This document shows, one piece after another, positions 12,733 through 48,068 of a stretch of DNA of 50,059 bases. The DNA lies in the IMG/VR virus record IMGVR_UViG_3300011416_000002, positions 1 to 50,059 of that record, one strand, 5' to 3'. The notes under the pieces were generated by a model. It was not told where the DNA came from, did no database searches, and saw only the letters and a program-made list of their open reading frames with translations. Every line of letters starts with the position of its first letter. Position 1 is the stretch's first letter. The stretch comes from a virus. A program made the position numbers and the translations under genes.

Positions 12733-12864
12733 GCCCTTTCGATGTAACCTTGAGGCATCTTTATAGGCTCTAATGTTGCTTCAAGACGCCTTTTGGGAGG
12801 ACCTGATCCAATGCTCAGACGCCAGGGATAAAGGCGCCCCATAGCTTAATGGGGCCTCCCGCCC

Positions 12865-12949
12865 GCCAGGGTAGCTCAAAGATAGAGCGCCGGTCTAGTC
12901 TGACGACTAGGAATGCCGGAAGATGGAGGTTCGAACCCTCCCCCTGGCC
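12865..12949 (+). tRNA. tRNA-like element with an expanded anticodon loop
   Basis: The 7-bp acceptor stem is perfect (GCCAGGG 12865-12871 with CCCTGGC 12942-12948). The D-arm is GCTC-AAAGATA-GAGC. The T-arm is GGAGG-TTCGAAC-CCTCC with the canonical TTCGAAC loop (12925-12941). The anticodon stem CCGGT pairs with GCCGG using one T-G wobble, but the loop has 20 bases instead of 7 and contains a 6-bp hairpin CTAGTC-TGAC-GACTAG. Removing 13 bases would leave a normal loop, with GGA, AGA or AGT as anticodon depending on the cut. CCA is not encoded. A T-run follows (TTATTTTTTT). It may be an intron-bearing or degenerate tRNA, or a tRNA mimic with a regulatory or processing role. Confidence 0.55.
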
Positions 12950-12962
12950 CCTTATTTTTTTA

Positions 12963-12991
12963 TTGACACCCCCTATTGAACAATGTACAGA
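12963..12991 (+). promoter_or_regulatory. Candidate sigma-70 promoter for the major capsid gene
   Basis: TTGACA at 12963-12968 is a perfect -35 box. After a 17-base spacer, TACAGA (12986-12991) is a poor -10 box. It lies between the tRNA-like element and the capsid start at 13044, where a separate strong promoter for the most abundant virion protein would be useful. The weak -10 keeps confidence low; an activator might be needed. Confidence 0.4.
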
Positions 12992-13043
12992 AGCCCGTAA
13001 GTCGGACGGGGAAACGAAATCCGGCACCCAAGGGGGAACCGCA

Positions 13044-13970
13044 ATGTCTTGGACATTTGACGCGCCGACCGGCACCTATCGGAACCACGCTCTGTCGAGC
13101 GACATCCGCCGCGAGGCTATCGCAGACACCCAGTTTATGAAGTTCTTCCGTGCCGAGCCCGGCTTCGGTAAGAAGAAGGGTGACACTGTCACGATCACTC
13201 GCATCATGAAGCTCCCGCTGGCAAGCCGCGTGAGTGAGACTGATGCATCGCTCCCGAGCGGCCGTCCGGCCATCGAGACCAAGTCGGTCTCTGTGAGCCA
13301 GTGGGGATACAAAATTCCCATCACGGAGTTCGAGCAGCACTTGACGCACTTCAACATCATGGACCCGTTCCAGCAGGCCCTTCGGGACCAGATTTCGCTG
13401 ACCATGGACAAGATGTGCGCCGACGCTCTCCAGCTCACGCCGTACAAGTACACCCCACTCTCGACTGGTGGTGAGTTCGTCACGGACGGCTCCGCTGACA
13501 GCCTCTCCGACCGCAACCTGGAAATCCAGGACCTCCGGCGCCTTCATGATCGCCTCCACGGCACGCTCAAGTGCCCCAAGTTCAAGAACGGCCGTTACAT
13601 CGGCATCCTGAGCACCAGGGCGGCCCGAGGCATCAAGAACGACCCGGAGTTCAAGGATTGGATGGCTCCTTCTACGAAGGACCCGCTGATCAGTGGCAAG
13701 CTCTACGATGTGGAGGGCTTCACCCTCTACGAGACCAACCACACCGACGCGCTGTCGGACCTGATCGGCAACTCCACCACGACTGGTGAGGCCATCTTCT
13801 TCGGCGCCGACGCTGGTGGCCTTGTGAAGATTATGGACCCCGAGCTGCGGGCTGGTATGCCCGAGGAGCTGGGTACCCGCCGCGAGATCGGCTGGGTCGG
13901 GACTGTCGAGGCGTTCCTCGTCTGGGAGCGTCCCACGCAGGCCCGCGTGATCCACCTGGCGTCAACGTAA
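13044..13970 (+). CDS. Major capsid protein
   Basis: The ATG at 13044 follows AGGGGGAA and gives 308 residues, a normal size for an HK97-fold capsid subunit. The pattern at residues 15-60 (HALSSDIRREAIADTQFMKFF, then KKGDTVTITRI) and the C-terminal REIGWVGTVEAF segment resemble the N4 gp56-like capsid group of podoviruses; the group assignment is tentative. Position after scaffold, high codon regularity and an own upstream promoter candidate support the call. No protease domain or delta region is seen, so maturation cleavage is unlikely. Confidence 0.8.
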   Translation: MSWTFDAPTGTYRNHALSSDIRREAIADTQFMKFFRAEPGFGKKKGDTVTITRIMKLPLASRVSETDASLPSGRPAIETKSVSVSQWGYKIPITEFEQHLTHFNIMDPFQQALRDQISLTMDKMCADALQLTPYKYTPLSTGGEFVTDGSADSLSDRNLEIQDLRRLHDRLHGTLKCPKFKNGRYIGILSTRAARGIKNDPEFKDWMAPSTKDPLISGKLYDVEGFTLYETNHTDALSDLIGNSTTTGEAIFFGADAGGLVKIMDPELRAGMPEELGTRREIGWVGTVEAFLVWERPTQARVIHLAST

Positions 13971-36518: not shown

Positions 36519-36690
36519 CGAGATGGTTAAGGCGGCGATGGATGTCATCAGCTTCCTTGCGCTTGTCGGCTGGTTTGCCGAAGCACTTCCGGCTGTCGCC
36601 ACTTTGCTGACAGTGTTCTGGACCGCCATCCGTATCTTGGAGACGGAGACGGTCCAGCGCTGGTTGAAGCAGAAGTCCGGCGACAACTAG
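36499..36690 (+). CDS. Small membrane protein, holin candidate (63 aa)
   Basis: The start at 36499 has GGAG six bases upstream. The sequence begins MLSPQSDEMVKAAMDV, then an uninterrupted hydrophobic stretch (~15-44) that can form one long or two short spans around a WFAEALP turn, then a basic amphipathic end (ETETVQRWLKQKS). This form is typical of small holins in podoviruses, although endolysin and this gene are 6.5 kb apart. It is the last rightward gene; its TAG interlocks with the TAG of the facing leftward gene. Confidence 0.65.
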   Translation: MLSPQSDEMVKAAMDVISFLALVGWFAEALPAVATLLTVFWTAIRILETETVQRWLKQKSGDN

Positions 36691-37067
36691 CTCATGGGAA
36701 GAAGCTCGTACTTGTCGCCACCGTTCAAGCTTGGTGGCGGAAGGATCGGCGCTAGCGGAAGTAGCCTGACGTAGAGCTGGGTCCGCCTACCATGGCTAAT
36801 CCGGGTCTTGGTGTGCCCCGTAGTTGGCGCTCTCTCCAGGCGGTTCGCCCTGATGAGGGACATGATGAAGGCGCCCCAGACGTTGTGGTGACGCGGCTTC
36901 CGTAGACCGTTGTTGAGGAGCGCGATCTTTACGTCCTCGCCTGAGAACGGCGATGGTAGTTGGACCGACATCACCAAGTTGGTGGCGTCCGCAATCCAAC
37001 GTTCATGGGTTTCCTGCATGTCGGATAGGATGGCCATTCCTACTTCCTGGCCTTGGGTCAGTGTCAT
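36687..37067 (-). CDS. Winged-helix-like small protein (126 aa)
   Basis: The last gene of the leftward block. Residues ~40-100 read FSGEDVKIALLNNGLRKPRHHNVWGAF, then a helix and a THTKTRISHGRRTQLYVRL end. Many phages and alphaproteobacteria carry small proteins with this PHHxNxWGAxF pattern and a basic beta-wing, probably DNA binding. An AAGGAA ribosome site precedes the start. Its stop codon shares the CTAG palindrome with the facing holin-candidate gene. Confidence 0.6.
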   Translation of the reverse strand: MTLTQGQEVGMAILSDMQETHERWIADATNLVMSVQLPSPFSGEDVKIALLNNGLRKPRHHNVWGAFIMSLIRANRLERAPTTGHTKTRISHGRRTQLYVRLLPLAPILPPPSLNGGDKYELLPMS

Positions 37068-37094
37068 CGTTGGTTCCTTTCATTGCTAAGTTAC

Positions 37095-37529
37095 TCAGTC
37101 CCCGAAGTTTCCGGCCTTCGGCCACTCCGGGGCGTACTTCACGCTGAAGTCGAACTCTGGCTGTTCCTCTGGAACGGTCTCGACCAGCTTCTGCTTCATG
37201 CGCTCATGGAGCCATCCCTGAATGTTAAAGAGGATGGCGCATGCTACGTCTTCGATGTCATCGCCGGCCTTAGGCTCCCATAGATCACGAGGGGCATCCT
37301 CGTAGGCCAGCCACAACTCGAACGAATGCCGGATGAAGCTCTCCATGTAAACTTCAGGGGGCATCCCACGCTTCCAGTTATCGGAGGACCGCATCGAGCC
37401 ATCGGGCTGTTTCCGATGCTTATGCATGTACTCAGCGAACCGCCTCATAGCCAGCGGGCTTATGAAGCCACGATAGTCGAGCTTGTCTGTGTTGGTGTCG
37501 CGGGTTGCACCCGTCTCAAACTTCCTCAT
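37095..37529 (-). CDS. dATP/dGTP diphosphohydrolase-like protein
   Basis: 144 residues with the family signature GATRDTNTDKLDYRGFISPL near the N-terminus, then RRFAEYMHKHRKQPDGSMR, DNWKRGMP, YMESFIRHSFELW, as in the phage dATP/dGTP diphosphohydrolase N-terminal domain (the MazZ-related group). Such enzymes remove dNTPs as dNMP and serve nucleotide-pool control. In Z-genome phages a relative supplies dGMP to PurZ, but no PurZ or DatZ is present here. So a general pool-editing role is more likely. It starts after AAAGGGAA. Confidence 0.7.
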   Translation of the reverse strand: MRKFETGATRDTNTDKLDYRGFISPLAMRRFAEYMHKHRKQPDGSMRSSDNWKRGMPPEVYMESFIRHSFELWLAYEDAPRDLWEPKAGDDIEDVACAILFNIQGWLHERMKQKLVETVPEEQPEFDFSVKYAPEWPKAGNFGD

Positions 37530-37553
37530 GTTGGTTCCCTTTCGAGTTGTAGA

Positions 37554-37790
37554 TCAATCTTGCCAGACGCGCTGCGGGGCCTCCGCAGGTGCTGGAGCTA
37601 CCTTGCCCGCTGCCGGCGCGATCTTTTGCTGTACGGGCTTCTTTGGGGCGTCTGCGGCCGTTGTAGGCTGCGGCGGCGCCTGCCGCTTCAGGACGCGGTA
37701 AGTTGCATCACCAACCACGATGAGCAGCATAACCGCTCCCCATAGGAAGGCTTTCTTATACCGCTTCAGAAAGTCGATTACCCTGCTCAT
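37554..37790 (-). CDS. Small single-span membrane protein with Pro/Ala-rich tail (78 aa)
   Basis: The start at 37790 overlaps the TGA of the upstream membrane protein gene (ATGA). A basic N-terminus (SRVIDFLKRYKK) is followed by one span (~13-30, AFLWGAVMLLIVVGDA) and a ~45-residue tail rich in Pro, Ala, Lys and Gln (periplasmic by the positive-inside rule). The shape would suit an inner-membrane spanin or a small envelope factor, but no outer-membrane partner gene with a lipobox is nested in it. Confidence 0.6.
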   Translation of the reverse strand: MSRVIDFLKRYKKAFLWGAVMLLIVVGDATYRVLKRQAPPQPTTAADAPKKPVQQKIAPAAGKVAPAPAEAPQRVWQD

Positions 37791-38017
37791 TTCCAGTTTC
37801 CTTTGTGGATGCGGATTGCTTCGAACAACCGTCTTAGAAGGAAGGACCGTAGCACACTGATAACGGTGAACACTACCCCGATCCCGAAAGCAGTTGTCAT
37901 CGTAACCGGTAGGCCGAAGACCGGGAGTACGAGTAAGTTGGCCCCAAAGTTGATCCCAAACCCGATTGCCACATTGCCCCATGCTTCCACCCACGACATG
38001 AACCTCGACTGCTTCAC
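37787..38017 (-). CDS. DUF7220-like membrane protein (76 aa)
   Basis: The GTG at 38017 overlaps the TGA of the preceding gene (GTGA), which gives the protein its family-typical beginning KQSRFMSWVEAWGNVAIGF. Two hydrophobic segments (~14-34 and ~38-58) are followed by RSFLLRRLFEAIR, the conserved basic end of this group of small phage and proteobacterial membrane proteins. The function is unknown. It belongs to the coupled chain of small membrane proteins at the operon's end. Confidence 0.65.
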   Translation of the reverse strand: MKQSRFMSWVEAWGNVAIGFGINFGANLLVLPVFGLPVTMTTAFGIGVVFTVISVLRSFLLRRLFEAIRIHKGNWK

Positions 38018-38211
38018 ATGCGGTCCATGAGGATTAGCTTTACCTCCTCCAGAACCTTCGCCTGCCCCTCTGGCTTGAGCCACCCGAGGTCGTTTGCGAT
38101 CCGCCTCGCAAGCTCCGTCATACTCAAACGGCTCGCCTCCTCTCTTGTAATCCACTTGAAACCTCCTTCAGTTGGCCAGTAGATATCGCCCCTCGGCTTC
38201 TCATCAGACAT
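38014..38211 (-). CDS. Small protein (65 aa), unknown
   Basis: The ATG at 38211 overlaps the end of the metallophosphoesterase gene by 8 bases. The sequence begins SDEKPRGDIYWPTEGGF and continues with charged helices (TREEASRLSMTELARRIANDLG; QAKVLEEVKLILMDRM). Translation appears coupled on both sides. No motif is recognised. Confidence 0.6.
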   Translation of the reverse strand: MSDEKPRGDIYWPTEGGFKWITREEASRLSMTELARRIANDLGWLKPEGQAKVLEEVKLILMDRM

Positions 38212-39154
38212 CGAGCACTTCTCCTCTGAACGTGACGAAGCCACCGGCTTCGTCGATGACAGTTACGAGTTCCGGGGGCAGTAGCGCCCCCTTCTTGAAG
38301 GTAAGTATGCAGAACCCTGCGACGTGATTACGTGGGTTGTGCTCCTGGTACTCGAACTGGGGACCCCAGACCGGCGCCAAAGCGCCCGCATCAACCCCCC
38401 ATCGCGTACCATTGTAGTCCGTGAAAGGCGTAACCTTTTGGCTATGGAGATGCCCCGTAACCATGGTGCGGCCAGACCACATCGCATTGTTATGTGTCGC
38501 ATGAATGCCACCCTTGAACCGATGCTTCACAATCGCACTAGGCGCCCTCTTGGGATCGCCCACCTCAGCCGCCCAACACGGTTCCCAATCCGGGAAGTGA
38601 TGCACGAGCCGCGTTCCATACACGTTCCGGAACTCCGGCGCCACCTCCGCCAGCCGCCTATTGAAGCGGGCATCATGGTTGCCTAGCGTCCAAATCTTCT
38701 TAGCCTTCCCCGCCGCCTCAGCGATCTCTCCCAGCCGCTCCTGCACCTCACATAGCTCATCTTCAACCGTCGGCACCTTCTCCCACCCTATCGGAGGATG
38801 CCGACTGATAGATGGGGCATCCAGCGCGTCCCCGTTCATGATGACCACGCGGGGCTTCATCTTCTTGATGAGCTTCACGAAGGCCCGGTGCGCCGTGCTG
38901 TAGATGCCCGGCCAGTAGTGCGCGTCCCCGCCTATGAAGACCATCCCATCGCTGATCTGGGCATTCACCTTCTCATTCTGAACCGGCATCCCCTTAGTGT
39001 ATTGGTTGGCTTGTCCCATCCGTAAGCTCGTCCCTGAACGCTGTTCAATCTTCGCACGGCGCTCATGAACCCGCCGCTCCCCTATGCCGAGCGCCTGTGC
39101 AAGCCTGTTGGGTCCGAGGGCTCTGTACTGCTCAATGAACTCATCGTCGCGCAT
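38204..39154 (-). CDS. Calcineurin-like metallophosphoesterase with N-terminal HTH
   Basis: The ATG at 39154 with AGAGGA eight bases upstream is preferred (316 residues). The frame stays open to a GTG at 39262, which would add a low-complexity basic leader. Residues 1-35 (EFIEQYRALGPNRLAQALGIGERRVHERR) look like a helix-turn-helix. The metal-binding signature follows in order: GDAHY (76-80), NGD (107-109), GNHD (158-161), IHATHNN and GHLHS (234-238). Phage enzymes of this type may act as nucleases, dNMP/RNA phosphatases or cyclic-nucleotide hydrolases; the sequence does not decide. The HTH suggests a DNA-linked task. Confidence 0.75.
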   Translation of the reverse strand: MRDDEFIEQYRALGPNRLAQALGIGERRVHERRAKIEQRSGTSLRMGQANQYTKGMPVQNEKVNAQISDGMVFIGGDAHYWPGIYSTAHRAFVKLIKKMKPRVVIMNGDALDAPSISRHPPIGWEKVPTVEDELCEVQERLGEIAEAAGKAKKIWTLGNHDARFNRRLAEVAPEFRNVYGTRLVHHFPDWEPCWAAEVGDPKRAPSAIVKHRFKGGIHATHNNAMWSGRTMVTGHLHSQKVTPFTDYNGTRWGVDAGALAPVWGPQFEYQEHNPRNHVAGFCILTFKKGALLPPELVTVIDEAGGFVTFRGEVLDV

Positions 39155-39209
39155 GGGGCGGGTCCTCTTAGGGGTGGGACCCCGTCTAGCCGTGAAGGTA
39201 ACCCGCTTT

Positions 39210-39237
39210 CGGGAGGGAGGCGAGCGCCTCCCTCCCG
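39210..39237. repeat. Near-perfect 28-bp palindrome
   Basis: CGGGAGGGAGGCG, two bases, CGCCTCCCTCCCG: a 13-bp stem with a 2-base loop. It lies between the stop at 39264 and the preferred start at 39154 of the phosphoesterase. No U-tract follows on either strand. It may be an RNA-processing stem or a protein-binding site. Confidence 0.6.
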
Positions 39238-39263
39238 CTCTCTTGACATTCCGCTTAGCCACT

Positions 39264-39629
39264 TCACTGCTCCGTTGGGGTTCCGTCCAGAGCGCGCCTC
39301 TCGAACTCTTTGAGGTCGCGCCGGATTTCCACGCCCTTGTTGGTCTCCGTAAAGCCGAAGCCCATCGCCAGAAGCGCCAAGCTCACCAAATTGAAGACAT
39401 GCTCCCGACTCCTGGCATAGCCGTGAACCCAGCCGCTTTCCTTCCACACCTGCCGCTGCATGTTCTCATCAAAGTTCGCAGGGGTCTGCCCTCTAACTAC
39501 ATGGCACCGATAGCTGTAACGTCCTGGACCATGCTGGAAGCTGCCGCCTTCATTCCATATGACGGAACGGGCGATCTCCGTGACTTCCTTGGTGACGGCA
39601 CTGTGCAACTCTACCTTCACGACTAGCAT
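39264..39629 (-). CDS. Conserved phage protein (121 aa), unknown
   Basis: The start at 39629 gives an N-terminus LVVKVELHSAVTKEVTEIAR that matches a widespread group of small phage proteins (pattern: V-E-L-H-S-A-x-T, then a NxGG turn and a GxYxY strand). The C-terminal half is helical with a hydrophobic patch (VFNLVSLALLAMGFGF) and a charged end. No catalytic motif is visible. It follows the small HTH gene after four bases. Confidence 0.6.
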   Translation of the reverse strand: MLVVKVELHSAVTKEVTEIARSVIWNEGGSFQHGPGRYSYRCHVVRGQTPANFDENMQRQVWKESGWVHGYARSREHVFNLVSLALLAMGFGFTETNKGVEIRRDLKEFERRALDGTPTEQ

Positions 39630-39633
39630 TGGC

Positions 39634-39798
39634 TTAGTCCTTCTTCTTGGTGCGGGGCCGGGTTGACCCCAGCGCCTCAGTGATGCGGCCCCTGTTGACG
39701 CCAAGCCGCTCCGCGAGGTCGGTCCTCCTTAGGTCCGGGAACCTCTTGGCGGTCTGTCTGATCTTCTCCTGCGTAATCTGCTCGTTCACCCTTTTCAT
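39634..39798 (-). CDS. Small helix-turn-helix protein (54 aa)
   Basis: The ATG at 39798 overlaps the TGA of the polymerase gene (ATGA). The sequence holds a clear HTH: RTDLAERLGVNRGRITEAL (residues ~24-42) followed by a basic tail (STRPRTKKKD). It is probably a DNA-binding regulator, possibly of the operon it sits in. Its small size hides it from long-frame searches, but the coupling and the motif support it. Confidence 0.7.
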   Translation of the reverse strand: MKRVNEQITQEKIRQTAKRFPDLRRTDLAERLGVNRGRITEALGSTRPRTKKKD

Positions 39799-41414
39799 AG
39801 CTCTATCTCCACTAACCCTTCTGGATTGCTCTTACTCTGCTTGCTCCAGTTGGAGCCGATTGCGGCCTCCACCTGGATGATGCACTCCCGTTCCTTGCCA
39901 TGGATGTCGCGCACCGGGACCTTGACCGACATGCACCCACCCAAGATGTCCAGCACCTCCTTTTCGTGTTCTGTCCTGTATTGGAAAAGCACCGCGTCGT
40001 GAACCTGGGCCAGCACTTCCAGAAGCTCCGGATCATATTGTGAGAGCCTCCACAGCCCAATGTTCAGGATATCCCCCACCCCGCTCTGAGGCCCGAACGC
40101 CAGCGCCTGCTTGTAGGTATGGGTGTCGTTGGGCCGCCCCAGGAGCCGGACTTCCCGATCCAGTGGGTTGTAAATCGGCTTCCGTTCATACACGTCTTGC
40201 AGCCGTTGGTTCTGCCACTCCTTGATGCCAGGGAACGCCTTGAAGAACCTTCCTTGGGCCTCCTCGCACCGGACGATGGGTATCTTGGCGATCATCGCCA
40301 TCCCCCGTGGAGTGAGCCCGTAGTTAGAACCGTGCTGGACCCGCTTCGCCTGGAACCGATAGTCGTGCCCCTCCGTCTTGTCCCAAGGCGGGTAGGTGTT
40401 CTTAGCCAGCGCCTTGTCCTTCTTGAGGTCTCCCGTCCACGGTATTTCTTCACTCCAGACCTCTCGACAGACGTAGGTATGAACGTCCCGCTGATGCGCT
40501 TCGATGTATTTTTCATCCCCCGCGATATACGCAACCAATAGACTTTCAGCGGTCTTCAGGTCCACATAGCACAGCTTCCGACCGCTATCCGGAACGAAGA
40601 TGAACCGATGCTTCTCCGCGATGTTCTGTAGGTTGCCGCCCTCCCCATATGGGTTCTTCGACGAACTCCACCGGCCGGTCCAAGGTGCAGAGACGTTGAA
40701 CCCGCTATGAAAGCGGCCCCTCAGACTAAGCTTAGCGGAGAGGAAACCCCTCTGCTTGTTGAGGTCCCGATGTTCCCGTAGCAGTTCCAGTAGGGAGCTG
40801 TACTTCGGCTTCTCATGGGACAGTTGCTCCAATGCATCATCATCCGTGGTGAGTGAACCGGTTTGCCCGTACTTCTTGGGGAGCTTCATCCTCTCATACA
40901 GAAGGTGGCAGCATTGATCCTTCGACGCGGGCTGGAACCGCATAGGCTTCAAGCGTGGCATCCCGCAGCGCTCACACCGCATCTCGTCCTGGCTCACAGC
41001 CGGCTCACCAACGGCGGTCCTGGGCCACTTATGGCGCTGCTCTTTCCCGGTCTTCGTCAGCTTCTCCGACTTGGGACAAAAGCCCGTTTCGAGTTCGACG
41101 CCATCCCAGAACTTGATGGTCCATTCATTCGCCTGGATAGCATCGGCGGTCTTCTCCAGGCTCTCGGTGACATCCTTCAGGGCAAGCTTCTGGCCCACCG
41201 TATCGACCTTGACCCCGCGAATACCCATGATGAAAGCCGGCGTCTGTTGCGCCAGGTTCCACTTGTAGGTCCGCACTTGGTTTGCGTTGAGCCTGGGTCT
41301 CAGGCGATTGAAGATTTCAAGGGTGCCGGTCGCATCGAGGCACGAATAGGCCGCGAACTTGGCTTCCCCGTGAAGCTCCTGGGCCTTCTCCAGGCCCACC
41401 GTGTTGAATTTCAT
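39795..41414 (-). CDS. Family A DNA polymerase, C-terminal piece (end of exonuclease + polymerase domain)
   Basis: 539 residues. The first 35 residues carry exonuclease motif III (YSCLD, Tyr23 and Asp27), so the protein begins inside the proofreading domain whose first half is encoded at 42885-44000. Then come TGRWSS (246-251), a NLQNI stretch (261-265), motif A with Asp285 and Glu290 (CYVDLKTAE), motif B with Arg353, Lys357 and HGSNYG (361-366), and motif C VHDAV (471-475; Asp473). An insert at ~105-170 has C147-X2-C150 and further cysteines, possibly a zinc site. It should be the replicative polymerase, active together with the N-terminal piece. The start overlaps the preceding gene as ATGA. 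Confidence 0.88.
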   Translation of the reverse strand: MKFNTVGLEKAQELHGEAKFAAYSCLDATGTLEIFNRLRPRLNANQVRTYKWNLAQQTPAFIMGIRGVKVDTVGQKLALKDVTESLEKTADAIQANEWTIKFWDGVELETGFCPKSEKLTKTGKEQRHKWPRTAVGEPAVSQDEMRCERCGMPRLKPMRFQPASKDQCCHLLYERMKLPKKYGQTGSLTTDDDALEQLSHEKPKYSSLLELLREHRDLNKQRGFLSAKLSLRGRFHSGFNVSAPWTGRWSSSKNPYGEGGNLQNIAEKHRFIFVPDSGRKLCYVDLKTAESLLVAYIAGDEKYIEAHQRDVHTYVCREVWSEEIPWTGDLKKDKALAKNTYPPWDKTEGHDYRFQAKRVQHGSNYGLTPRGMAMIAKIPIVRCEEAQGRFFKAFPGIKEWQNQRLQDVYERKPIYNPLDREVRLLGRPNDTHTYKQALAFGPQSGVGDILNIGLWRLSQYDPELLEVLAQVHDAVLFQYRTEHEKEVLDILGGCMSVKVPVRDIHGKERECIIQVEAAIGSNWSKQSKSNPEGLVEIEL

Positions 41415-41641
41415 CCAACCTTACCGCGCACCTTCAGATAAACGTGGCAGTCGTTTATCGTAAGAAGGTACGGCGGATGAGTTTCGCCAGTCCCTATCGC
41501 CCCCATGGCATCGAGTTCCGCCATGAGCTTTTTATAGATCGTATGCCGGTCCGCCTCGGTCTTGAAGAAGATCGATATGGAGGACGGAGCCCCATTCGCC
41601 TCAGACAGTTCCGCATACAAGCCGCAGAATTCCTCAATCAT
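41411..41641 (-). CDS. Small protein inside the polymerase split (76 aa)
   Basis: The ATG at 41641 overlaps the TGA of the upstream gene, and its own TGA overlaps the polymerase ATG. The sequence has a helical start (IEEFCGLYAELSEAN), a beta stretch (SSISIFFKTEADRH) and a FxY-rich end. No endonuclease motif is seen. It is the immediate leader of the polymerase piece, so it may help set its translation level. Confidence 0.6.
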   Translation of the reverse strand: MIEEFCGLYAELSEANGAPSSISIFFKTEADRHTIYKKLMAELDAMGAIGTGETHPPYLLTINDCHVYLKVRGKVG

Positions 41642-42009
41642 CAGTTCCCACCTGGAATGTAGAGACACCTCAGCTTGCCATACCATTCGCAAGAATGAGT
41701 TTCGCCGTCCTTTGACTGCTCAAAGCGGGTGTCAGCGTCCACTGCCACCGCTTTCCCCGTCTTGTTGGTGTAGTACCACTTCCCGTTGCGCTGTTCGGCC
41801 TTCGTGATCGGGCCACAGTCCTGCATGTTGCAGCAATAGGCGCTGTACCATGAGTGAGCCGCCGCTGGCTGGGACCAGCTCACGAAGATGAGGAACGCTA
41901 TAGCCGCGCAAGCACTCGGAAGGGGATCAGTCGGTGGCACGATTGGCATCTTGCACTGGTAGGATTGATGGCCCCACTTGAGGCACCGGAAGCAGAACTT
42001 CTCCTGCAT
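41641..42009 (-). CDS. Zinc-knuckle protein fused to a signal-anchor and Cys-rich exported domain
   Basis: Residues 6-19 are CFRCLKWGHQSYQC, an exact CX2CX4HX4C zinc knuckle. A hydrophobic segment follows (~34-50, CAAIAFLIFVSWSQPAAA), then HSWYSAYCCNMQDCGPI and a paired-cysteine end (THSCEW and LRCLYIPGG). That last domain matches small exported proteins I associate with alphaproteobacteria and their phages (H-x-WY-x-x-x-CC-x-x-x-DC pattern). A cytoplasmic knuckle joined to a periplasmic domain is odd. One alternative is that the knuckle is the true N-terminus of a membrane-tethered RNA-binding protein. It lies within the polymerase split. Confidence 0.6.
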   Translation of the reverse strand: MQEKFCFRCLKWGHQSYQCKMPIVPPTDPLPSACAAIAFLIFVSWSQPAAAHSWYSAYCCNMQDCGPITKAEQRNGKWYYTNKTGKAVAVDADTRFEQSKDGETHSCEWYGKLRCLYIPGGN

Positions 42010-42034
42010 GACACGGCTCCTTGCAATGCGACAC

Positions 42035-42238
42035 TTAGTCGCTGCTTCTAAGGAAGTTCCAGGCTTTCACGCACCCGATGATAGCCGCTGCCAGCCCAAG
42101 GACCGGGTGAACGAACATGGTAAGCGGAATTGCGGCGGCGACCATGATGAGGGTCATGATGACCCGGTAAGCCTGCTTCTCCTCCTGAGGGAGGCTTTCC
42201 CCCTTGAGGTCCTTCACGATGTTCTTCAGTAGGTTCAT
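42035..42238 (-). CDS. Small two-span membrane protein (67 aa)
   Basis: ATG at 42238, one base after the preceding TAA. A charged N-terminus (NLLKNIVKDLKGESLPQEEK) is followed by two spans at ~27-42 and ~44-60 (VIMTLIMVAAAIPLTMF, LGLAAAIIGCVKAW). Function unknown. It is one of six genes between the two polymerase pieces. Confidence 0.6.
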   Translation of the reverse strand: MNLLKNIVKDLKGESLPQEEKQAYRVIMTLIMVAAAIPLTMFVHPVLGLAAAIIGCVKAWNFLRSSD

Positions 42239-42239
42239 G

Positions 42240-42443
42240 TTACCACTCCATGTATGTGCTGAGATAGATGAGGCCGATGCCCCACACGACGAGGACAAGC
42301 CCCGTCAACGATGGGAGTACAGAGTACCATTTCGCGATGAGATCGATAACCGCCAAAGCCAGCAGGATGGTGCCGACCCAGACTAGGAGACAGCCGATCC
42401 CTCGGAGGATGATCCCAAGGAGGTCCTTACCGCTGTCAAGCAC
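42240..42443 (-). CDS. Small two-span membrane protein (67 aa)
   Basis: GTG start at 42443 with AGGGAG eight bases upstream, overlapping the preceding stop by 8 bases. Two hydrophobic stretches (~9-35 and ~43-62: IILRGIGCLLVWVGTILLAL, LTGLVLVVWGIGLIYL). No signal or motif beyond that. It belongs to the coupled cassette within the polymerase split. Confidence 0.6.
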   Translation of the reverse strand: MLDSGKDLLGIILRGIGCLLVWVGTILLALAVIDLIAKWYSVLPSLTGLVLVVWGIGLIYLSTYMEW

Positions 42444-42627
42444 CTCGTATCTCCCTTAGTTCACCGGTAGTCCAGGCGTTCTGGAGGTCCCACAACTCCC
42501 GCTGGATGTCATGGAAGTCGTTAACGAGCTTCCGCTGTAGGAGCGCCGTGTCCTGGATTTGGGTAGTCTTCTCAGTCAGCTTGTCATTCAGCACCTTACG
42601 GGCCGCTTCGTATTCCTCGTCACTCAT
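42436..42627 (-). CDS. Small coiled-coil protein (63 aa)
   Basis: The start at 42627 is favoured because its ATGAGTGA overlaps the upstream TGA. The sequence begins SDEEYEAARKVLNDK and is one long heptad-like helix (TALLQRKLVNDFHDIQRELWDLQ). It could be an oligomeric adaptor. No family is recognised. Confidence 0.55.
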   Translation of the reverse strand: MSDEEYEAARKVLNDKLTEKTTQIQDTALLQRKLVNDFHDIQRELWDLQNAWTTGELREIRGA

Positions 42628-42892
42628 TGGCTTCTTCTTCATCAGTCGCGTCATCTGCTTTGTCCTTCTGTTTGAACACTCTGAAAGCGTAGGCCATTAC
42701 TTCAAGCTCTACCCTGTCCCCGACCTTAACATCTTCCGGCTTTAGCCCCGTTGCATGGAGCGCGGCCTTCGATACCAAGATGTTCCCTAGGTGATGAAAC
42801 AGCCTTGGACTGATAGGCCGGGCCAAGATGGTGACAAGCCCTCGCTGGTTCGTTTCATGATGCTTGATGACACATGGGATGTTGTCACTCAT
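42620..42892 (-). CDS. Small beta-rich protein directly after the exonuclease piece (90 aa)
   Basis: ATG at 42892 overlaps the TGA of the exonuclease gene by 8 bases. A hydrophobic beta stretch (CVIKHHETNQRGLVTILARP), a LKPEDVKVGDRVELEV block typical of small barrel folds, and an acidic tail (DDATDEEEANE). Acidic ends are common on proteins that bind replication partners. It stands exactly at the upstream edge of the polymerase split and might bridge the two pieces. Confidence 0.6.
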   Translation of the reverse strand: MSDNIPCVIKHHETNQRGLVTILARPISPRLFHHLGNILVSKAALHATGLKPEDVKVGDRVELEVMAYAFRVFKQKDKADDATDEEEANE

Positions 42893-44000
42893 CGCGCTTA
42901 TCTCCTCTCTGCTTCTGCCTTAGGCCGCTTTCGCCGGCCCAATGCTTCCATGAGCCTTGCCGGCTGTAGGAATTTCCCATGAACTGTAGGCTCGCCGGTA
43001 GCTCCGGGTAAAGAGCTTTGTGAAGCAACCGCAGATCGTGGCAGTAATTGCGGGGCCTTATGTTCATCTTCTGTAGGAGCCAGGGCACATCATAGGCGCC
43101 GAAGTTCTGTCCCAGCTTCGGGACATCGTTCTCCAGGATCGCCTTGCAGGCCATCCAAGCCCGCTTCTCCTTGGCCGCGCTATACCAGTAGGATGCGTTG
43201 AGGTTGTCCATCGAGATGAAGGGGACATACATCGCCCGCTCCTCTGAGGTCGCGAACGCTATACCCCGTACCATTCTTGGTACGAGCGCATTATCAGGGC
43301 TCCACCATGTCTCGATGTCGGCACTCAGTAGAGGCGCCTTCGCCGCCTCATCCACGAAGGCTTCCACTTCCTCGATGGTCGGCGCAATGCTCAGGAGCCG
43401 CTTCGGAAGCTCTATGTGCTTCCCGATTTCGGCCTCGGCCAGCGCCCTATTGAGGTCCCCGATGAACACATGGAACAGGCTGTACTTACGCCGGACCATG
43501 TCGGGGTCGAAGATGGGGAAGAACTTCACCCCGAAGAACAGCCGCTCTCCCATGAAGGGCTGGCCCCTCAGGTTGCTGATGTTGCCACCGGGCTTGAACG
43601 CGGCCACCGCATTGGTGCCAAGCGGGACGACCACAGTGGGGTTCGCCGCTTCGATTTCGGCCTTCACCCGCGCAAGCGATGCCTCATGATAGGCGGGCCA
43701 CTCGGAGCCCCGGCGCCGCTTCTCCCGCACAATGTCGTCCCCCTCGAACTTCTCATCATAGACATAGGTGAGGAGGCAGTCGTAGCGGTCTATCGAGGCG
43801 GCTCTCATGCCGCTCTCAAGGATGATCCCAGTAGGACCCACGAAGGGCGCGTTCTTCTCGCACTCCCACGCCTGCGGGGCGTCACCGATGAAGGCCAGCT
43901 TACAAGGCGCTCTACGCGGGAAGTCGGCCGGGACCTTCCGACCGTACTCCTCGGAGCGGTTCTCAAAGCGGGGCTTTCTTACTCTTGTGAAGGTAGCCAT
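42885..44000 (-). CDS. UDG-like domain fused to the first half of the 3'-5' exonuclease domain (polymerase N-terminal piece)
   Basis: The ATG at 44000 gives 371 residues. Residues ~30-190 are a uracil-DNA glycosylase family 4/5-like domain: GDAP (39-42), PFVGPTG (52-58), VVVPLGTNA (123-131), and IFDPDMVRR (163-171) where most relatives have His-Pro; the histidine position is Asp165. Residues ~220-371 carry exonuclease motif I (SADIETW, Asp228, Glu230) and motif II (GQNFGAYD, Asp304), then the ALYPELPASL helix and a WKHWAGES end. Motif III is missing here and found in the polymerase piece at 39795-41414. Together they make one UDG-exo-pol chain of the SPO1 type cut in two. Confidence 0.85.
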   Translation of the reverse strand: MATFTRVRKPRFENRSEEYGRKVPADFPRRAPCKLAFIGDAPQAWECEKNAPFVGPTGIILESGMRAASIDRYDCLLTYVYDEKFEGDDIVREKRRRGSEWPAYHEASLARVKAEIEAANPTVVVPLGTNAVAAFKPGGNISNLRGQPFMGERLFFGVKFFPIFDPDMVRRKYSLFHVFIGDLNRALAEAEIGKHIELPKRLLSIAPTIEEVEAFVDEAAKAPLLSADIETWWSPDNALVPRMVRGIAFATSEERAMYVPFISMDNLNASYWYSAAKEKRAWMACKAILENDVPKLGQNFGAYDVPWLLQKMNIRPRNYCHDLRLLHKALYPELPASLQFMGNSYSRQGSWKHWAGESGLRQKQRGDKRDE

Positions 44001-44036
44001 GAAAAAGCCGGGGACCGCCCATGCCAAGCGGTCCCC
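44001..44036 (-). terminator. Intrinsic terminator touching the start codon of the UDG-exo gene
   Basis: GGGGACCGC (44036-44028 read leftward) and GCGGTCCCC (44018-44010) form a perfect 9-bp stem with a nine-base loop, followed by GGCTTTTTC and then the ATG at 44000. This is a good intrinsic terminator, and no Shine-Dalgarno sequence fits between it and the ATG. It can act as an attenuator of the polymerase unit. Confidence 0.7.
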
Positions 44037-44045
44037 GGTCCCCGT

Positions 44046-44240
44046 CTAGTCGGTTTCTATGCCGGACTTCTTCCGGAACTCAACAACATCTTCAAGGACC
44101 GCCAACGGTAGGTAGAGCAGAGCATGCGAAACAGCGGCCCTTAGGAGGGTCGCGAGGGCAGGCTCAGTGGTTGGCGGTAAGAGGACAGCGGCCTCAGCTC
44201 TATCGAGGACGTTTCTTAGGCTTCTCTGTGGGCTTCCCAT
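44046..44240 (-). CDS. Small protein (64 aa), unknown
   Basis: It begins inside the preceding gene (41-base overlap) and ends 46 bases before the UDG-exo start. The sequence is helical with a hydrophobic centre (EPALATLLRAAVSHALLYLPLAVLEDVVEF) and a basic end. It could associate with a membrane or a partner. The call rests on an open frame in the right place only. Confidence 0.4.
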   Translation of the reverse strand: MGSPQRSLRNVLDRAEAAVLLPPTTEPALATLLRAAVSHALLYLPLAVLEDVVEFRKKSGIETD

Positions 44241-44451
44241 ACTCTTTCCCCAGTCTCTTGAGGGTCTTTGCGGAGCCCCCAGACGTCAATCCCACGCGGA
44301 CCGCCTTATTGAAGGCTGGGCTTTGATAGGCCCGTCCCTTCTCAAGCCCTCTCATGTCAGAGAGCTTTTGAGCGACCATAGCGCGAACCCTTGACGACTG
44401 AGGGCTCCTGCGAATACCAGTCCTGATAGACCTAGATGTCTTGAATGCCAC
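44200..44451 (-). CDS. Small very basic protein (83 aa)
   Basis: The ATG at 44451 overlaps the upstream gene by 20 bases. The composition is rich in Arg, Lys and Ser (SRSIRTGIRRSPQSSRVRAM; KPTEKPKKRPR), suggesting nucleic-acid binding. No fold or motif is recognised. Confidence 0.55.
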   Translation of the reverse strand: MAFKTSRSIRTGIRRSPQSSRVRAMVAQKLSDMRGLEKGRAYQSPAFNKAVRVGLTSGGSAKTLKRLGKEYGKPTEKPKKRPR

Positions 44452-44923
44452 TTGGCTTAGGGACCTTCAACCCAGAGATGAGACCTGATACGGGAGGCCC
44501 ATTCTCCAGCTTATTGCTGACCCCGTCAACAACGACCGCGTCCGTGAAGGTTTCCACGGGGTGCCGGGTTTTGCCCGTTTGAACCCAGTAGAGGGCCTTC
44601 CCCATGATGATGTCAGAGGTAGCGGATAGAGCCGCGTACCGCTGACCCTCAGTGGGGAAGTGCGCCAGGAGGTCGCCCAGGCACCGGGACAGGCAATCGA
44701 TGGCATGGCTCATGATGATCTTCCCATCCGCAGCGCCCATCTGCTCATGCTGGTGGGCCATGATGGTCTCGAAAATCTTAGAGGCCATCGTCGGAGGCTC
44801 CTTATCCGGGATGAACCCGTTCTCAGTAGCCATCTTGTTGAACTCCTCGACGGCCTTTCCCTGAGGATCACCCGTGATCCCAAGAAGGCTGTAGAGGCTT
44901 TCCATTCCCTTAGGCGTTGCCAT
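44432..44923 (-). CDS. Conserved-looking protein in the recombination cluster (163 aa)
   Basis: The start at 44923 follows an AGGAACC site. Helical and mixed: ESLYSLLGITGDPQGKAVEEF, then a MSHAIDCLSRCLGDLLAHFP core with paired cysteines, and a C-terminal GLISGLKVPKPSG end. It lies between the Sak4-like unit and the polymerase unit. No family is recognised. Confidence 0.55.
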   Translation of the reverse strand: MATPKGMESLYSLLGITGDPQGKAVEEFNKMATENGFIPDKEPPTMASKIFETIMAHQHEQMGAADGKIIMSHAIDCLSRCLGDLLAHFPTEGQRYAALSATSDIIMGKALYWVQTGKTRHPVETFTDAVVVDGVSNKLENGPPVSGLISGLKVPKPSGIQDI

Positions 44924-44951
44924 TGTAGGTTCCTTTCTTCTGTTAAGTGGT

Positions 44952-44982
44952 GGAGGGGACGGGGTGGGCTCCCATCCCCTCC
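44952..44982. other. Inverted repeat in the gap behind the recombination unit
   Basis: GGAGGGGA and TCCCCTCC form an 8-bp stem around 15 bases, between the stop at 45010 and the start at 44923. No U-tract follows on the transcribed strand, so a terminator role is uncertain. Confidence 0.35.
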
Positions 44983-45009
44983 TCGGCGGAGGATTGAGTT
45001 TGCCCAATC

Positions 45010-45489
45010 CTACTCGGCCGAAACGAAGAACGAGATGCTGTTCTGAGTGGTCACCTTGCCTGTAGTCTTGTTGGTGACCTGCTCCTGGACGACGTGACCC
45101 AGGACCTCAGTGTTCTTGCATGCGTCGATAGCCTCCTCCGGGGAACCGTAGTCCTTCCGGGCATCGATCCCATGGAGGGCCAGGTGAGCCGTGATCTTGG
45201 CCCAATCGTTGGCGCTTCCACCGGCCCAAAGCCGCTCGAAGATGCGGTTCTCGGAGTAGTTGTAGTTCTTTCCGAGCGCCGCAAGAGCCTCATCATCGAC
45301 ATCGTCCATGGGCTCGACCGGCTCATAGGCGAATACGATCTGCGGAGAGACCTTGGGGTTCTTGTTGGGGCTGAACTTAGCCGCCCGACACTTGAGACGC
45401 CATGTCCCAGGAGGCAGGAGCTTCAGGTCCGGGATGTTGTCCCAAGAGCCCTTGAGGATGCTCTCGTAGTCAGTCACTTCATCAGTCAT
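45010..45489 (-). CDS. Conserved phage protein next to the Sak4-like ATPase (159 aa)
   Basis: The start is preceded by AAAGGAA. The N-terminus (LKGSWDNIPDLKLLPPGTW) and centre (FAYEPVEPMDDVDDEALAALG) are of a type often found beside Sak4-like ATPases and Cas4-like nucleases in phages of GC-rich hosts. The rest is beta-rich with an acidic surface. A single-strand DNA-binding or accessory recombination role is plausible from the neighbours; no aromatic/basic OB motif is clear. Confidence 0.6.
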   Translation of the reverse strand: MTDEVTDYESILKGSWDNIPDLKLLPPGTWRLKCRAAKFSPNKNPKVSPQIVFAYEPVEPMDDVDDEALAALGKNYNYSENRIFERLWAGGSANDWAKITAHLALHGIDARKDYGSPEEAIDACKNTEVLGHVVQEQVTNKTTGKVTTQNSISFFVSAE

Positions 45490-45517
45490 GTCATTTCCTT
45501 TCTGGTTGCAACCACTG

Positions 45518-46420
45518 TTAACCGGGGGGTATATGACCCAACGCGATGAACAGTTCCTTGAGGGCCGTTTCCGGACCCAATCCGTTTAGCTTCTCCAGGT
45601 TCCTCGCAGGGACCTTGATATCCATGTCGCTGCGGGGCAGAACCTGCATGCACCTTGTCCCGGTGGAGCCTTTGAACTTGGTCTCAAAGTTCACCACAAT
45701 CGGGAACTCACCGCTGATCGTCTGAGGCAGGGACCAGCCCACCGCCGTCGGATAAAACCGAGTTGGGATCATATCCACCGCCTGCTTCTTGATCTCCTTG
45801 GTGATATCGCCGTCACCGCTCTGGGTATCCTTAGGACCCACCATCTTCAGGTGGCTGATGACGATCACATGATGCTTGTTGGTAGTCGCCGTGAGCCGCC
45901 TCAGGAAGTTAAGCTGATCGGCCGCCGCCATGCCCCACACAGCCTGTGTGGTGTTCAGTGGGGTCTTCCCAGCCAGAGACCGGGCGCGGTTCATGGCTGC
46001 ATTGGCGTTCCCGGTGATCCCGTCGAGCACCACAATGGTGTCGGGACCCCAATCCTTGGATTGGCCAAGATCGATCCAGCAGACCCCCTTATCGTCCGGG
46101 GTTCCAGTGGGGTCCTGATACTTCCATCGATCCAGAAGGCGGACCCCCTTCGCGAAAGCGGTAGGCATATTGGGACCGAGGAACCCCTCCTTGTCCACGA
46201 TGGGGTCCTCCAGGGAGACGATATCGATGTTCTTTAGCCGCTCCTTGTCCGTGAATAGGAGGAGGCTCTCCGGATTGCCATCGAAGTCCAGGATGCGGAG
46301 CTTCCATCCGGCATTGGCTAAAGAAGCCAATGCTCCAGTCTTTGAGGCTCCCGGAAATCCGGTGACCAGGAGGCGAGCGGGGCTTTGTCCGAGGAGGGTG
46401 AGTGCGTTGGCCATTGGCAT
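45518..46420 (-). CDS. Sak4-like RecA-fold ATPase (single-strand annealing/recombination)
   Basis: The start at 46420 follows AGAGG. 300 residues with Walker A GFPGASKTG (21-29), a WKLRILDFDGNPES strand-loop, Walker B DTIVVLDGITG (127-137) and a VIVISHLKMVG sensor-like strand (185-195). Size and pattern fit the phage Sak4/Rad51-like ATPases, which work with a single-strand binding protein in recombination and repair. The nuclease at 46863 and the conserved protein at 45010 complete a likely recombination module. Confidence 0.75.
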   Translation of the reverse strand: MPMANALTLLGQSPARLLVTGFPGASKTGALASLANAGWKLRILDFDGNPESLLLFTDKERLKNIDIVSLEDPIVDKEGFLGPNMPTAFAKGVRLLDRWKYQDPTGTPDDKGVCWIDLGQSKDWGPDTIVVLDGITGNANAAMNRARSLAGKTPLNTTQAVWGMAAADQLNFLRRLTATTNKHHVIVISHLKMVGPKDTQSGDGDITKEIKKQAVDMIPTRFYPTAVGWSLPQTISGEFPIVVNFETKFKGSTGTRCMQVLPRSDMDIKVPARNLEKLNGLGPETALKELFIALGHIPPG

Positions 46421-46463
46421 GGACCTCTTAGAAGGGGTGTGGGTGCCAGGGGTTCGCCTAGCC

Positions 46464-46482
46464 AAAAGAGGGTCGCCCCTCT
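46464..46482 (-). terminator. Intrinsic terminator before the Sak4-like gene
   Basis: Read leftward: AGAGGG-GCGA-CCCTCT followed by TTTTGG. A 6-bp stem with a tetraloop and a short U-run, 44 bases ahead of the ATPase start. It would end transcripts coming from the nuclease gene, so the ATPase probably has its own promoter or depends on readthrough. Confidence 0.6.
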
Positions 46483-46498
46483 ACCCCACCATGGGAGA

Positions 46499-46540
46499 CT
46501 GGCGGAAGGTCACGGGCTCTTAGGACGCGCCTTCCGCCAG
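46499..46540. repeat. 11-bp inverted repeat in the nuclease-ATPase gap
   Basis: CTGGCGGAAGG (46499-46509) and CCTTCCGCCAG (46530-46540) are perfect inverted copies with a 20-base loop, beside the terminator at 46464. It could be a tandem terminator stem or an operator. The gap 46421-46862 otherwise holds only the 45-codon frame at 46585. Confidence 0.5.
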
Positions 46541-46584
46541 CCATTCGGCATCATGAGTGAAGGGCAGGATTGCCCGATGCCGAA

Positions 46585-46722
46585 TTAGTTACCGCTCTGC
46601 CTCTCCAGATGGGAGAAGATCGAACGAGCGGTAGAGAGCGTCATAGCCCGCTCATGGCGGGGCTTACAATGACGCGGCACATCGAAAGTCATCTGGCATG
46701 CTAAGAGCATTGCAATAATCAT
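46585..46722 (-). CDS. Possible 45-aa protein with a lipobox-like N-terminus
   Basis: ATG at 46722 with GGAG 11 bases upstream. It starts MIIAMLLACQMTF, in which LLAC resembles a lipoprotein lipobox, though the signal is unusually short and lacks N-terminal positive charge. The rest is basic and helical (RHERAMTLSTARSIFSH). The ribosome site and hydrophobic start speak for it; the size and isolation against it. Confidence 0.4.
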   Translation of the reverse strand: MIIAMLLACQMTFDVPRHCKPRHERAMTLSTARSIFSHLERQSGN

Positions 46723-46862
46723 AGGTTTTCTCCGTTTTTGTGAGACGAACTTCGTCGCGGCGAGTTGTAGCTCATCTCGCCGTTCCGCGCCATGCGGCAA
46801 GTCGCCGCGCCCTCGCCGCCATGGCCGCCTCATACGTTAGGAAGGGGCCATAGACGCTTCCA

Positions 46863-48068
46863 TCAGTCTCCTCTAACCACCATTGGTTGTGTCTCTTGAA
46901 CAACCGGGGACGCTTCACTTCCGACATTTACTGGTTCCCTTTTCCTTAGGAGGGGGTTCCAACGCGACCTTTCGAACTTCGCGTTGAGCATCGCTTCCCT
47001 GATGGACGGCTCCGCTTTGCAGACTTCTTTGAAGTTACAGAACCGGCACGCGGTGCGGTTACGCGGCCAGAAATTCTGGATGGCGAACTGTTGAGCCATA
47101 GAGAGCCAGATGAGGATTTCCTTGTAGAACTCCTCCTTCCGCTCCTCACTGTGGGGATATACCCGCCAGCCGAATTTGACCCAGCCATTGCCGGCTTGCA
47201 TGGCTTCGATAGCGACACCGCTATAGGGCATATCTGCTGGAAGAGCCCTACCTGCCACGAGACCATAGAGGTCCACCTGGACGTTCGGCGCGAACTGCGA
47301 GAAGTATTGGTCATTGAGTTGGTTCTTCGTTGTCTTGTAGTCAGTGATGAAGACCTCTCCCTCCCCAGGATGGGTCTGAGGTCCATCACCCCACAGTTGC
47401 TTCACACCATCAAACCATCCTGCTACGTGGTACTTGATGCCACCAATCGTTGCAAATGGAATTCGATACTGAACCTCCACCGCCGCCTTGTGGGAACCGT
47501 CGGGATATTTCACACTGATCGGCTTGAGAGCACCGTTCTTCACCTCCTCAGCGTACCAGACGATGGCTCGCACAAGCTGTATGCGGTCCTTCACATCGGT
47601 AGCCGGCAGCCATAGCCGCTCGACGGCGGTCTTCGATCCGCAGCCACAGAAGCCCGGCGATGGCATTGGGAAGTATTTCCCCTTGTGGCTGAAGGGACAC
47701 TTAGCCGGGTTGCCCTTCTCATTCTTGAATTTGGTGAGACCCAGGCACCGCCATCCATCGACGTATTCACCGAGGGTGGGGACATTCCGTTCGGTGTCCC
47801 ATGTGCGCCCGAGGACGAGCCTCACAGCGGCGCGCACCGCCGCGTCATGCGTGTCTCCTTCCTCCATGATCCGCCTATAGAACAGCTCGACGGCCTCGCC
47901 ATAGATGGAGCCGAACTCCAAATCGACCTTCTCCTCCCTCGTTGTGTAGCCGAGGACGTTGTGAAGGTAATACTGGTGTGAGCACTCCATGAGGGACTTC
48001 AAGGAAGTTGCGTCCCACACCTGTTGGATGTGGGGCATGTCAGGATGGAATAGGGTTGGTTCGGTCAT
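46863..48068 (-). CDS. Cas4/RecB-like PD-(D/E)XK nuclease with Fe-S cluster
   Basis: 401 residues. Nuclease core: GWFDG (217-221, Asp220), FITDYKTTK (240-248, Asp243 and Lys245; the usual acid before Lys is Tyr), then QVDLYG (264-269). Four cysteines placed as in AddB/Cas4 Fe-S nucleases: Cys29 at the N-terminus and C341-X2-C344-X5-C350 at the C-terminus. Extra cysteines (124, 141, 143) in a CPFSHKGKY...FCGCG insert may bind zinc. Such enzymes resect DNA ends for recombination. The ATG overlaps the preceding TGA. Confidence 0.78.
   Translation of the reverse strand: MTEPTLFHPDMPHIQQVWDATSLKSLMECSHQYYLHNVLGYTTREEKVDLEFGSIYGEAVELFYRRIMEEGDTHDAAVRAAVRLVLGRTWDTERNVPTLGEYVDGWRCLGLTKFKNEKGNPAKCPFSHKGKYFPMPSPGFCGCGSKTAVERLWLPATDVKDRIQLVRAIVWYAEEVKNGALKPISVKYPDGSHKAAVEVQYRIPFATIGGIKYHVAGWFDGVKQLWGDGPQTHPGEGEVFITDYKTTKNQLNDQYFSQFAPNVQVDLYGLVAGRALPADMPYSGVAIEAMQAGNGWVKFGWRVYPHSEERKEEFYKEILIWLSMAQQFAIQNFWPRNRTACRFCNFKEVCKAEPSIREAMLNAKFERSRWNPLLRKREPVNVGSEASPVVQETQPMVVRGD

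Follow-up and report, generated by a model that had tools for sequence, protein, structure and literature searches.

Several phages are known to tolerate split replication enzymes, including the gene 43 products 43A/43B and Aeh1 NrdA (PMC2988022), MIJ3 PolB (PMC6892783), and MEP401 PolA (PMC10580990). In the T4-like phages with a split gene 43, the replicase is encoded as two chains with gene material between them, in one case the homing endonuclease seg43, and 43A and 43B of Aeromonas phages 25 and 44RR copurify with polymerase activity (PMC2988022). NrdA of Aeh1 is an essential enzyme that is split by mobE in a functionally critical region and is still active (PMC2988022). In MIJ3, the phage polymerase is interrupted, with an endonuclease (HNH) gene at the joint, and protein splicing through a putative split intein has been proposed (PMC6892783). 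The OM43 phages MEP401 and MEP402 encode a family A polymerase in two open reading frames (ORFs) with one small unknown ORF between them, an arrangement that many related metagenomic genomes share (PMC10580990). Here we describe a divided DNA polymerase in the IMG/VR virus record IMGVR_UViG_3300011416_000002, the whole of which (50,059 bases) is referred to as the window. As judged from sequence comparison, a block of genes on its minus strand very probably encodes a stable two-chain family A replicase, with a proofreading site to which both chains contribute in trans.

This locus departs from the described systems in several ways. The split gene 43 specifies a family B polymerase that has no uracil-DNA glycosylase (UDG) domain, and it has been described in a few phages rather than as the fixed state of a family A clade. 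The break in MEP401/MEP402 lies inside the polymerase domain and not between exonuclease motifs II and III. Aeh1 NrdA is a different enzyme whose insert is a homing endonuclease, unlike the window, and in contrast to MIJ3, no intein was found in the window chains. In domain order and homologous sequence, the window proteins match the UDG-exonuclease-polymerase enzymes of PaBG (PMC7412058), phiLo (9QHS), and the loci L002, L003, L005, and L172-L251; those enzymes are single chains, whereas the clade containing the window is split. Relative to the open-access literature, a family A split that runs through the exonuclease active site and is fixed in a clade, together with its conserved chain ends and busy intergenic joint, is new.

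The upstream gene (42885-44000, minus strand) encodes a 371-amino-acid protein, here called chain 1, with a UDG-like domain and the N-terminal part of a 3'-5' exonuclease domain. The downstream gene (39795-41414, minus strand) encodes chain 2, a 539-amino-acid protein with the C-terminal part of the exonuclease domain, including motif III, and a complete family A polymerase. Chain 1 matched the Pfam families UDG (6.6e-10) and, weakly and under its gathering score, DNA_pol_A_exo1 (6.3e-4); chain 2 matched DNA_pol_A (2.6e-32). The single PHROG profile phrog_17 covers both chains consecutively, chain 1 at profile positions 553-782 and chain 2 at 805-1233, indicating that together they tile one protein. 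Chain 2 has the domain and motifs expected of a family A DNA polymerase (PF00476), namely the motif A aspartate D285 (40560-40562, minus strand), R353...K357 of motif B in the O-helix (40344-40358, minus strand), and H472-D473 of motif C (39996-40001, minus strand). The motifs of a PolA-type DnaQ-like 3'-5' exonuclease (DxE, the motif II aspartate, and YxxxD) are likewise all present and are shared out between the chains. Motif I (D228-I-E230; 43311-43319, minus strand, read from the sequence) and the motif II aspartate D304 (43089-43091, minus strand), which aligns to the Klenow QNLKYD motif, are on chain 1, while motif III (Y23-S-C-L-D27, or YSCLD; 41334-41348, minus strand) is on chain 2. 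With two genes that tile one polymerase, catalytic residues on both chains, and fused homologs in existence, 42885-44000 and 39795-41414 encode two parts of one polymerase. An earlier note on this DNA had placed the UDG-like domain and exonuclease motifs I and II upstream and motif III with the complete polymerase downstream, and the positions of the ORFs and their Pfam and PHROG matches bear this out.

The same break was found in relatives of the window. Caulobacter phage Kuura, a cultured freshwater phage, carries Kuura_029 (annotated hypothetical), two small genes, and Kuura_026 (annotated DNA polymerase). Its polymerase and that of the window break at one place, past a conserved W-K after motif II and ahead of the motif III YxxxD, and in an alignment the fused relatives Desulfofustis phage, Mel-JY34, and ctMlz233 read straight through this site. 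The two small joint genes of Kuura are unrelated to the six of the window, and the text of the Kuura paper reached by a term search has no mention of the split (PMC9959647). Scans of viral contigs with window chain 1 or chain 2 alone gave no match, and a profile built from the polymerase halves of the window and Kuura brought up 12 viral-contig loci (11 split and 1 fused). Wider profiles, for which the best 80 relatives per scan were retained, yielded several hundred relatives, many of them contig fragments, as well as six genome-collection loci, five of them split. Removal of duplicates, recognized by their terminal sequences rather than by genome identity, left 113 distinct split pairs, comprising the window, Kuura, and 111 other metagenomic loci, and the two genes were always on the same strand and in the same order. 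Sequencing error, a chimera, and chance are ruled out as sources of the window arrangement, since 112 further distinct loci, that of cultured Kuura among them, are broken at the same place. Among the matches listed from 50,697 phage records, Kuura alone has this split, and hundreds of mostly uncultured phages appear to encode their replicase as two proteins. The joint between the genes ranges from -8 to 1,470 nucleotides (nt), the longest being the 1,470 nt of the window. Twenty-five of the 113 pairs overlap (mostly by ATGA), and the others fall at 0-30 nt (9 pairs), 31-150 nt (7), 151-300 nt (30), 301-600 nt (29), 601-1000 nt (8), and above 1000 nt (5). An apparent frameshift inside chain 2 of the polymerase ORF at L086:706-2266 is likely a sequencing error.

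The catalytic residues of the split pairs are intact on both sides of the joint. The aspartate and glutamate of exonuclease motif I are kept in 111/111 alignable split pairs, and the motif II aspartate and the motif III tyrosine and aspartate are each kept in 113/113. The polymerase carboxylates are kept wherever alignable; the motif A aspartate and the motif B residues are each present in 103/103 alignable pairs, and those of motif C in 101/101. The ratio of nonsynonymous to synonymous substitution rates (dN/dS) between close pairs was about 0.03-0.27 on the UDG, exonuclease I-II, exonuclease III, and polymerase parts; one distant comparison, made over the first 60 codons of chain 2, gave 0.45. 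Both chains are under purifying selection. Intact residues together with low dN/dS are predicted by a working two-chain enzyme and not by decay, in which proofreading would be lost, chain 2 would serve as a free polymerase, and chain 1 would be a leftover UDG-like protein. We regard decay as very unlikely, given that the exonuclease residues are unchanged on both chains in every alignable case, that dN/dS is low on both exonuclease parts, and that motif loss occurs in no sampled split pair. What does speak for it is the UDG-like domain of the window, where one activity may be gone. The chain 1 model has a family-4 UDG fold (1UI0, Z 18.8; UdgX, Z about 18), but motif 2 has an aspartate in the window where 105/108 alignable members have a histidine, and motif 1 reads GDAPQ instead of the expected GExPG-like sequence. 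The domain therefore lacks the family-4/UdgX catalytic motifs and is probably not an active glycosylase. For the exonuclease, the claim of the earlier note that a working site needs residues from both chains agrees with the division of motifs I and II from motif III, a division kept in all alignable split pairs.

Structural comparisons gave a similar picture of the division. AlphaFold single-chain models, made from 26-sequence alignments, had a mean predicted local distance difference test score (pLDDT) of 81.3 for chain 1 and 84.5 for chain 2. The chain 2 model aligns to residues 472-928 of Klenow (1KFS; Z 30.1), and because the alignment begins at residue 472, chain 2 starts inside the exonuclease domain. 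The structure-comparison rows for chain 1 were mostly UDG, and its exonuclease part was therefore placed by sequence profile, which aligned it with the Klenow exonuclease at construct residues 15-126, a stretch that contains the FDTET and QNLKYD motifs. A Foldseek comparison of chain 1 with the Klenow exonuclease gave 7.9e-8, and chain 1 also aligns to 9QHS, the solved single-chain phiLo family A polymerase. The alignments of the two chains to Klenow indicate that together they cover one Klenow-like enzyme and that the gap falls between motifs II and III. We propose that the family A polymerase of the phage consists of two polypeptides, both encoded in a single block of genes that run in the same direction. 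The two would fold against each other as parts of a Klenow-like exonuclease domain, and one proofreading site would then be made up of D228, E230, and D304 from chain 1 together with Y23 and D27 from chain 2.

The phylogeny of the polymerases, from trees built by quick searches, groups the split enzymes together. In the polymerase tree, a single branch separates all 99 split rows from five fused rows (Shimodaira-Hasegawa-like approximate likelihood ratio test value of 93). A further scan added 63 fused genes, and in the resulting 106-row tree, which includes 67 fused sequences, 29/29 split representatives, the window and Kuura among them, make up a single starred clade that contains no fused member. 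The fused relatives are its sister group; a fused UDG-exonuclease-polymerase gene, which the earlier note had suggested looking for among relatives, thus does exist. These trees point to one ancestral break that has been kept across the clade. Inside the fused clade, L183 (3200-3310), which is 62% identical to the fused L176, has the same joint broken by an in-frame stop followed by an ATG, with GGAGG just ahead of the in-frame stop. L183 is either an independent second split at the exonuclease joint, possibly a newborn one, or a lone nonsense change.

A second break site falls between the NLQN motif and polymerase motif A, where the pieces are separated by as much as about 775 nt. It is present in nine loci of the otherwise fused sister clade (L240, L242, L243, L244, L246, L247, L249, L250, and L251) and in Vibrio phage vB_VspS_VS-ABTNL-3 (L004), a distribution for which the tree needs at least three changes. 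The MEP401 split, into exonuclease plus N-terminal polymerase and C-terminal polymerase (PMC10580990), looks like one of this kind. Splitting is recurrent in these polymerases, and in this sample only the exonuclease break is fixed in a large clade. The joints at the second break hold HNH-like or helix-turn-helix-like genes.

The split clade has also acquired distinctive chain ends. Chain 1 of the window ends in K-R-D-E followed by the stop codon (42885-42899, minus strand), which is a conserved chain-end signature of the clade. Tails of K-R-D-E are found in 27 pairs, K-R-D-D in 16, K-R-D-A in 12, and G-R-D-K in 12, along with close variants, usually after T-I. Chain 2 usually begins with M-[KR]-I-I-x-T, and the fused relatives are without these tail and head sequences. 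The tail arginine is encoded by AGR in 58 cases and by CGN in 28, and the threonine and isoleucine use all their codons; this mixed codon use indicates selection on the peptide. Conservation of the tail purely as a ribosome-binding site is ruled out as the sole cause, since both AGR and CGN are used for the arginine and no Shine-Dalgarno-like word was found in the 18 bases scanned at 73/113 polymerase starts. We propose that the chain 1 tail (K-R-[DE]-[EDA]) and the chain 2 head (M-[KR]-I-I-x-T) help the chains to dock, and where the joint is tight, chain 2 is probably translated through stop/start reinitiation.

The behavior of the joint bears on whether the two ORFs instead end up as a single chain, be it through an intron, through programmed frameshifting or bypass, or through a split intein that splices the proteins, as in MIJ3 PolB. 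Introns and inteins are well documented in phage polymerases (PMC2988022, PMC6892783), and the authors of the MEP401 study held an intron possible for that split (PMC10580990). However, the chain 1 tail and stop are conserved regardless of what comes next, and tight joints occur at -8, -4, -1, 0, +1, and +2, a set of offsets that does not fit any one recoding rule. There is scant room for an intein, with chain 1 ending 19 residues past W-K and chain 2 starting 22 before motif III, and a Pfam scan of both chains (E up to 1) found no intein family. Rfam searches gave no match in the window region (37000-47000, E up to 1), with no group I or II intron core, and none in 15 related loci. We therefore consider joining of the two ORFs extremely improbable. 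The clade-wide break, the lack of an Rfam match in these regions, and the varied tight-joint offsets favor the earlier proposal that the locus encodes a stable split enzyme and is not explained by a frameshift or an intron.

Some observations weigh against the two-chain enzyme as we picture it. We infer the meeting of chains 1 and 2 in space from sequence and single-chain models. The pLDDT is low over 16 residues at the end of chain 1 and over 6 at the start of chain 2, so docking by those ends is a guess, and linked change between tail and head variants gave few independent contrasts. The window itself sits on a long branch (its nearest row, L007, has 37% best identity over the polymerase), which makes its precise position among the split enzymes less secure.

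Since both chain ends are already free in the two-chain enzyme, the joint would be like any other intergenic position, and small genes, homing endonucleases among them, could land there without harm to the enzyme. The 75 joints of at least 90 nt contain 99 called ORFs, mostly unrelated to one another and most of them orphans. A Pfam scan of 32 of these ORFs found HNH_3 in 5, Endonuclease_7 in 3, LAGLIDADG_3 in 2, and GIY-YIG in 1, with single matches to dNMP-kinase, RNase H, and HD-domain families. L044 (joint of -4) and L053 (+225) have nearly identical polymerases and differ by an insert exactly between the stop and the start, and the close pairs L069/L070 and L021/L022 also differ by such an insert. 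On the tree, 26 changes between empty and filled joints are needed. These comings and goings agree with the suggestion in the earlier note that genes have moved into the joint; their origin as operon neighbors does not fit as well, in that a homolog elsewhere in the flanks could be detected for only 7/99 joint ORFs. Two joint ORFs, L053:2187-2441 and L093:4373-4567, end in a second copy of the chain 1 tail (VKRDE and TIKRDE, respectively). The short junction repeats that flank the L053 and L093 inserts are a trace of how inserts enter.

This traffic raises the question of whether a mobile gene, either a homing endonuclease or a passenger, caused the split in the first place, as in Aeh1 nrdA, with the joint later emptied and refilled. 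Such an origin would give the same present two-chain enzyme; the alternative is a stop/restart mutation followed by insertions. The endonuclease families matched in joint ORFs of relatives favor an insertion origin, as do the early branches (the window, L007, Kuura/L014, L167, L168, and L169), all of which have filled joints. In contrast, 34 sampled members have a joint of at most 35 nt and no insert, L183 has an independent break with only an in-frame stop, GGAGG, and ATG, and no endonuclease family was found in the window joint or in the scanned joint ORFs of Kuura, L014, and L007. On balance, we consider an insertion origin possible, although we lean against it. A separate idea is that the split has been kept for its function, with the UDG-exonuclease chain acting as a detachable proofreading subunit in an epsilon-like role and its active site completed by the residue pair of the polymerase chain. 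We think this unlikely, but if it is true, the ratio of proofreading to polymerizing could be varied through gene order and translational coupling and tuned by the joint genes.

The stable two-chain replicase would be a case of an active site built from two separately translated chains and fixed in a large clade that is mostly metagenomic, with one cultured phage. Its members offer natural replicates of cutting an enzyme at one place and keeping it working, including near-identical pairs from before and after an insertion. The birth of split enzymes, the conversion of free ends into an interface, and the pull of a joint on small genes and homing endonucleases thereby become testable. There are also consequences for annotation. 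Considering that the upstream half in Kuura, Kuura_029, is annotated only as hypothetical, virome polymerases that are partial or lack an exonuclease may in many cases be halves.

In the window phage, six small genes would have accumulated in the joint. These ORFs occupy 41411-42892, between chain 1 and chain 2, and all are on the minus strand. Gene 1 (42620-42892; 90 amino acids) belongs to no family and has an 8-base overlap with the chain 1 stop. Gene 2 (42436-42627) encodes 63 amino acids from the ATG in its 8-base overlap, or 72 from an ATG at 42654. Gene 3 (42240-42443; 67 amino acids) has a GTG start and encodes a strongly hydrophobic, membrane-protein-like product, and gene 4 (42035-42238; 67 amino acids) has one hydrophobic segment. 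Gene 5 (41641-42009; 122 amino acids) has a weak zinc-knuckle match (CX2CX4HX4C), then a hydrophobic segment; a cysteine-rich part (HSWYSAYCCNMQDC) was noted after the hydrophobic segment. Gene 6 (41411-41641) encodes 76 amino acids from an ATG in a TGATG overlap and runs by an ATGA overlap into the polymerase start. The 8-base overlap ATGAGTGA, read from the sequence, occurs twice, at 42885-42892 and 42620-42627, and genes 2 and 3 share an 8-base GTG overlap at 42436-42443. The remaining couplings are, in order, a gap of 1 base, a gap of 25 bases with AGGAG as the ribosome-binding site, the 1-base TGATG overlap, and the ATGA overlap. By a codon-usage score calculated for the window, the annotated frame was best for all six genes, marginally so for gene 1. 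The overlaps and codon scores uphold the earlier description of six small, mostly coupled genes between the chains. That description had also seen neither a homing endonuclease nor an intron core in the joint, which agrees with the Rfam result and with Pfam and PHROG scans that found no endonuclease family among the six genes; several relatives do carry endonucleases there. Genes 1 and 5 had no homologs in phage records.

Elsewhere in the window, the Kuura_025-type gene that is next after the polymerase in relatives was not found at 36687-39800. ARAGORN called a tRNA-Thr (agt) at 12865-12951, overlapping a long ORF at 12849-13970; it has an odd anticodon and is likely false. A 451-amino-acid ORF at 362-1717 has a weak match to a dual-specificity phosphatase (3e-4).

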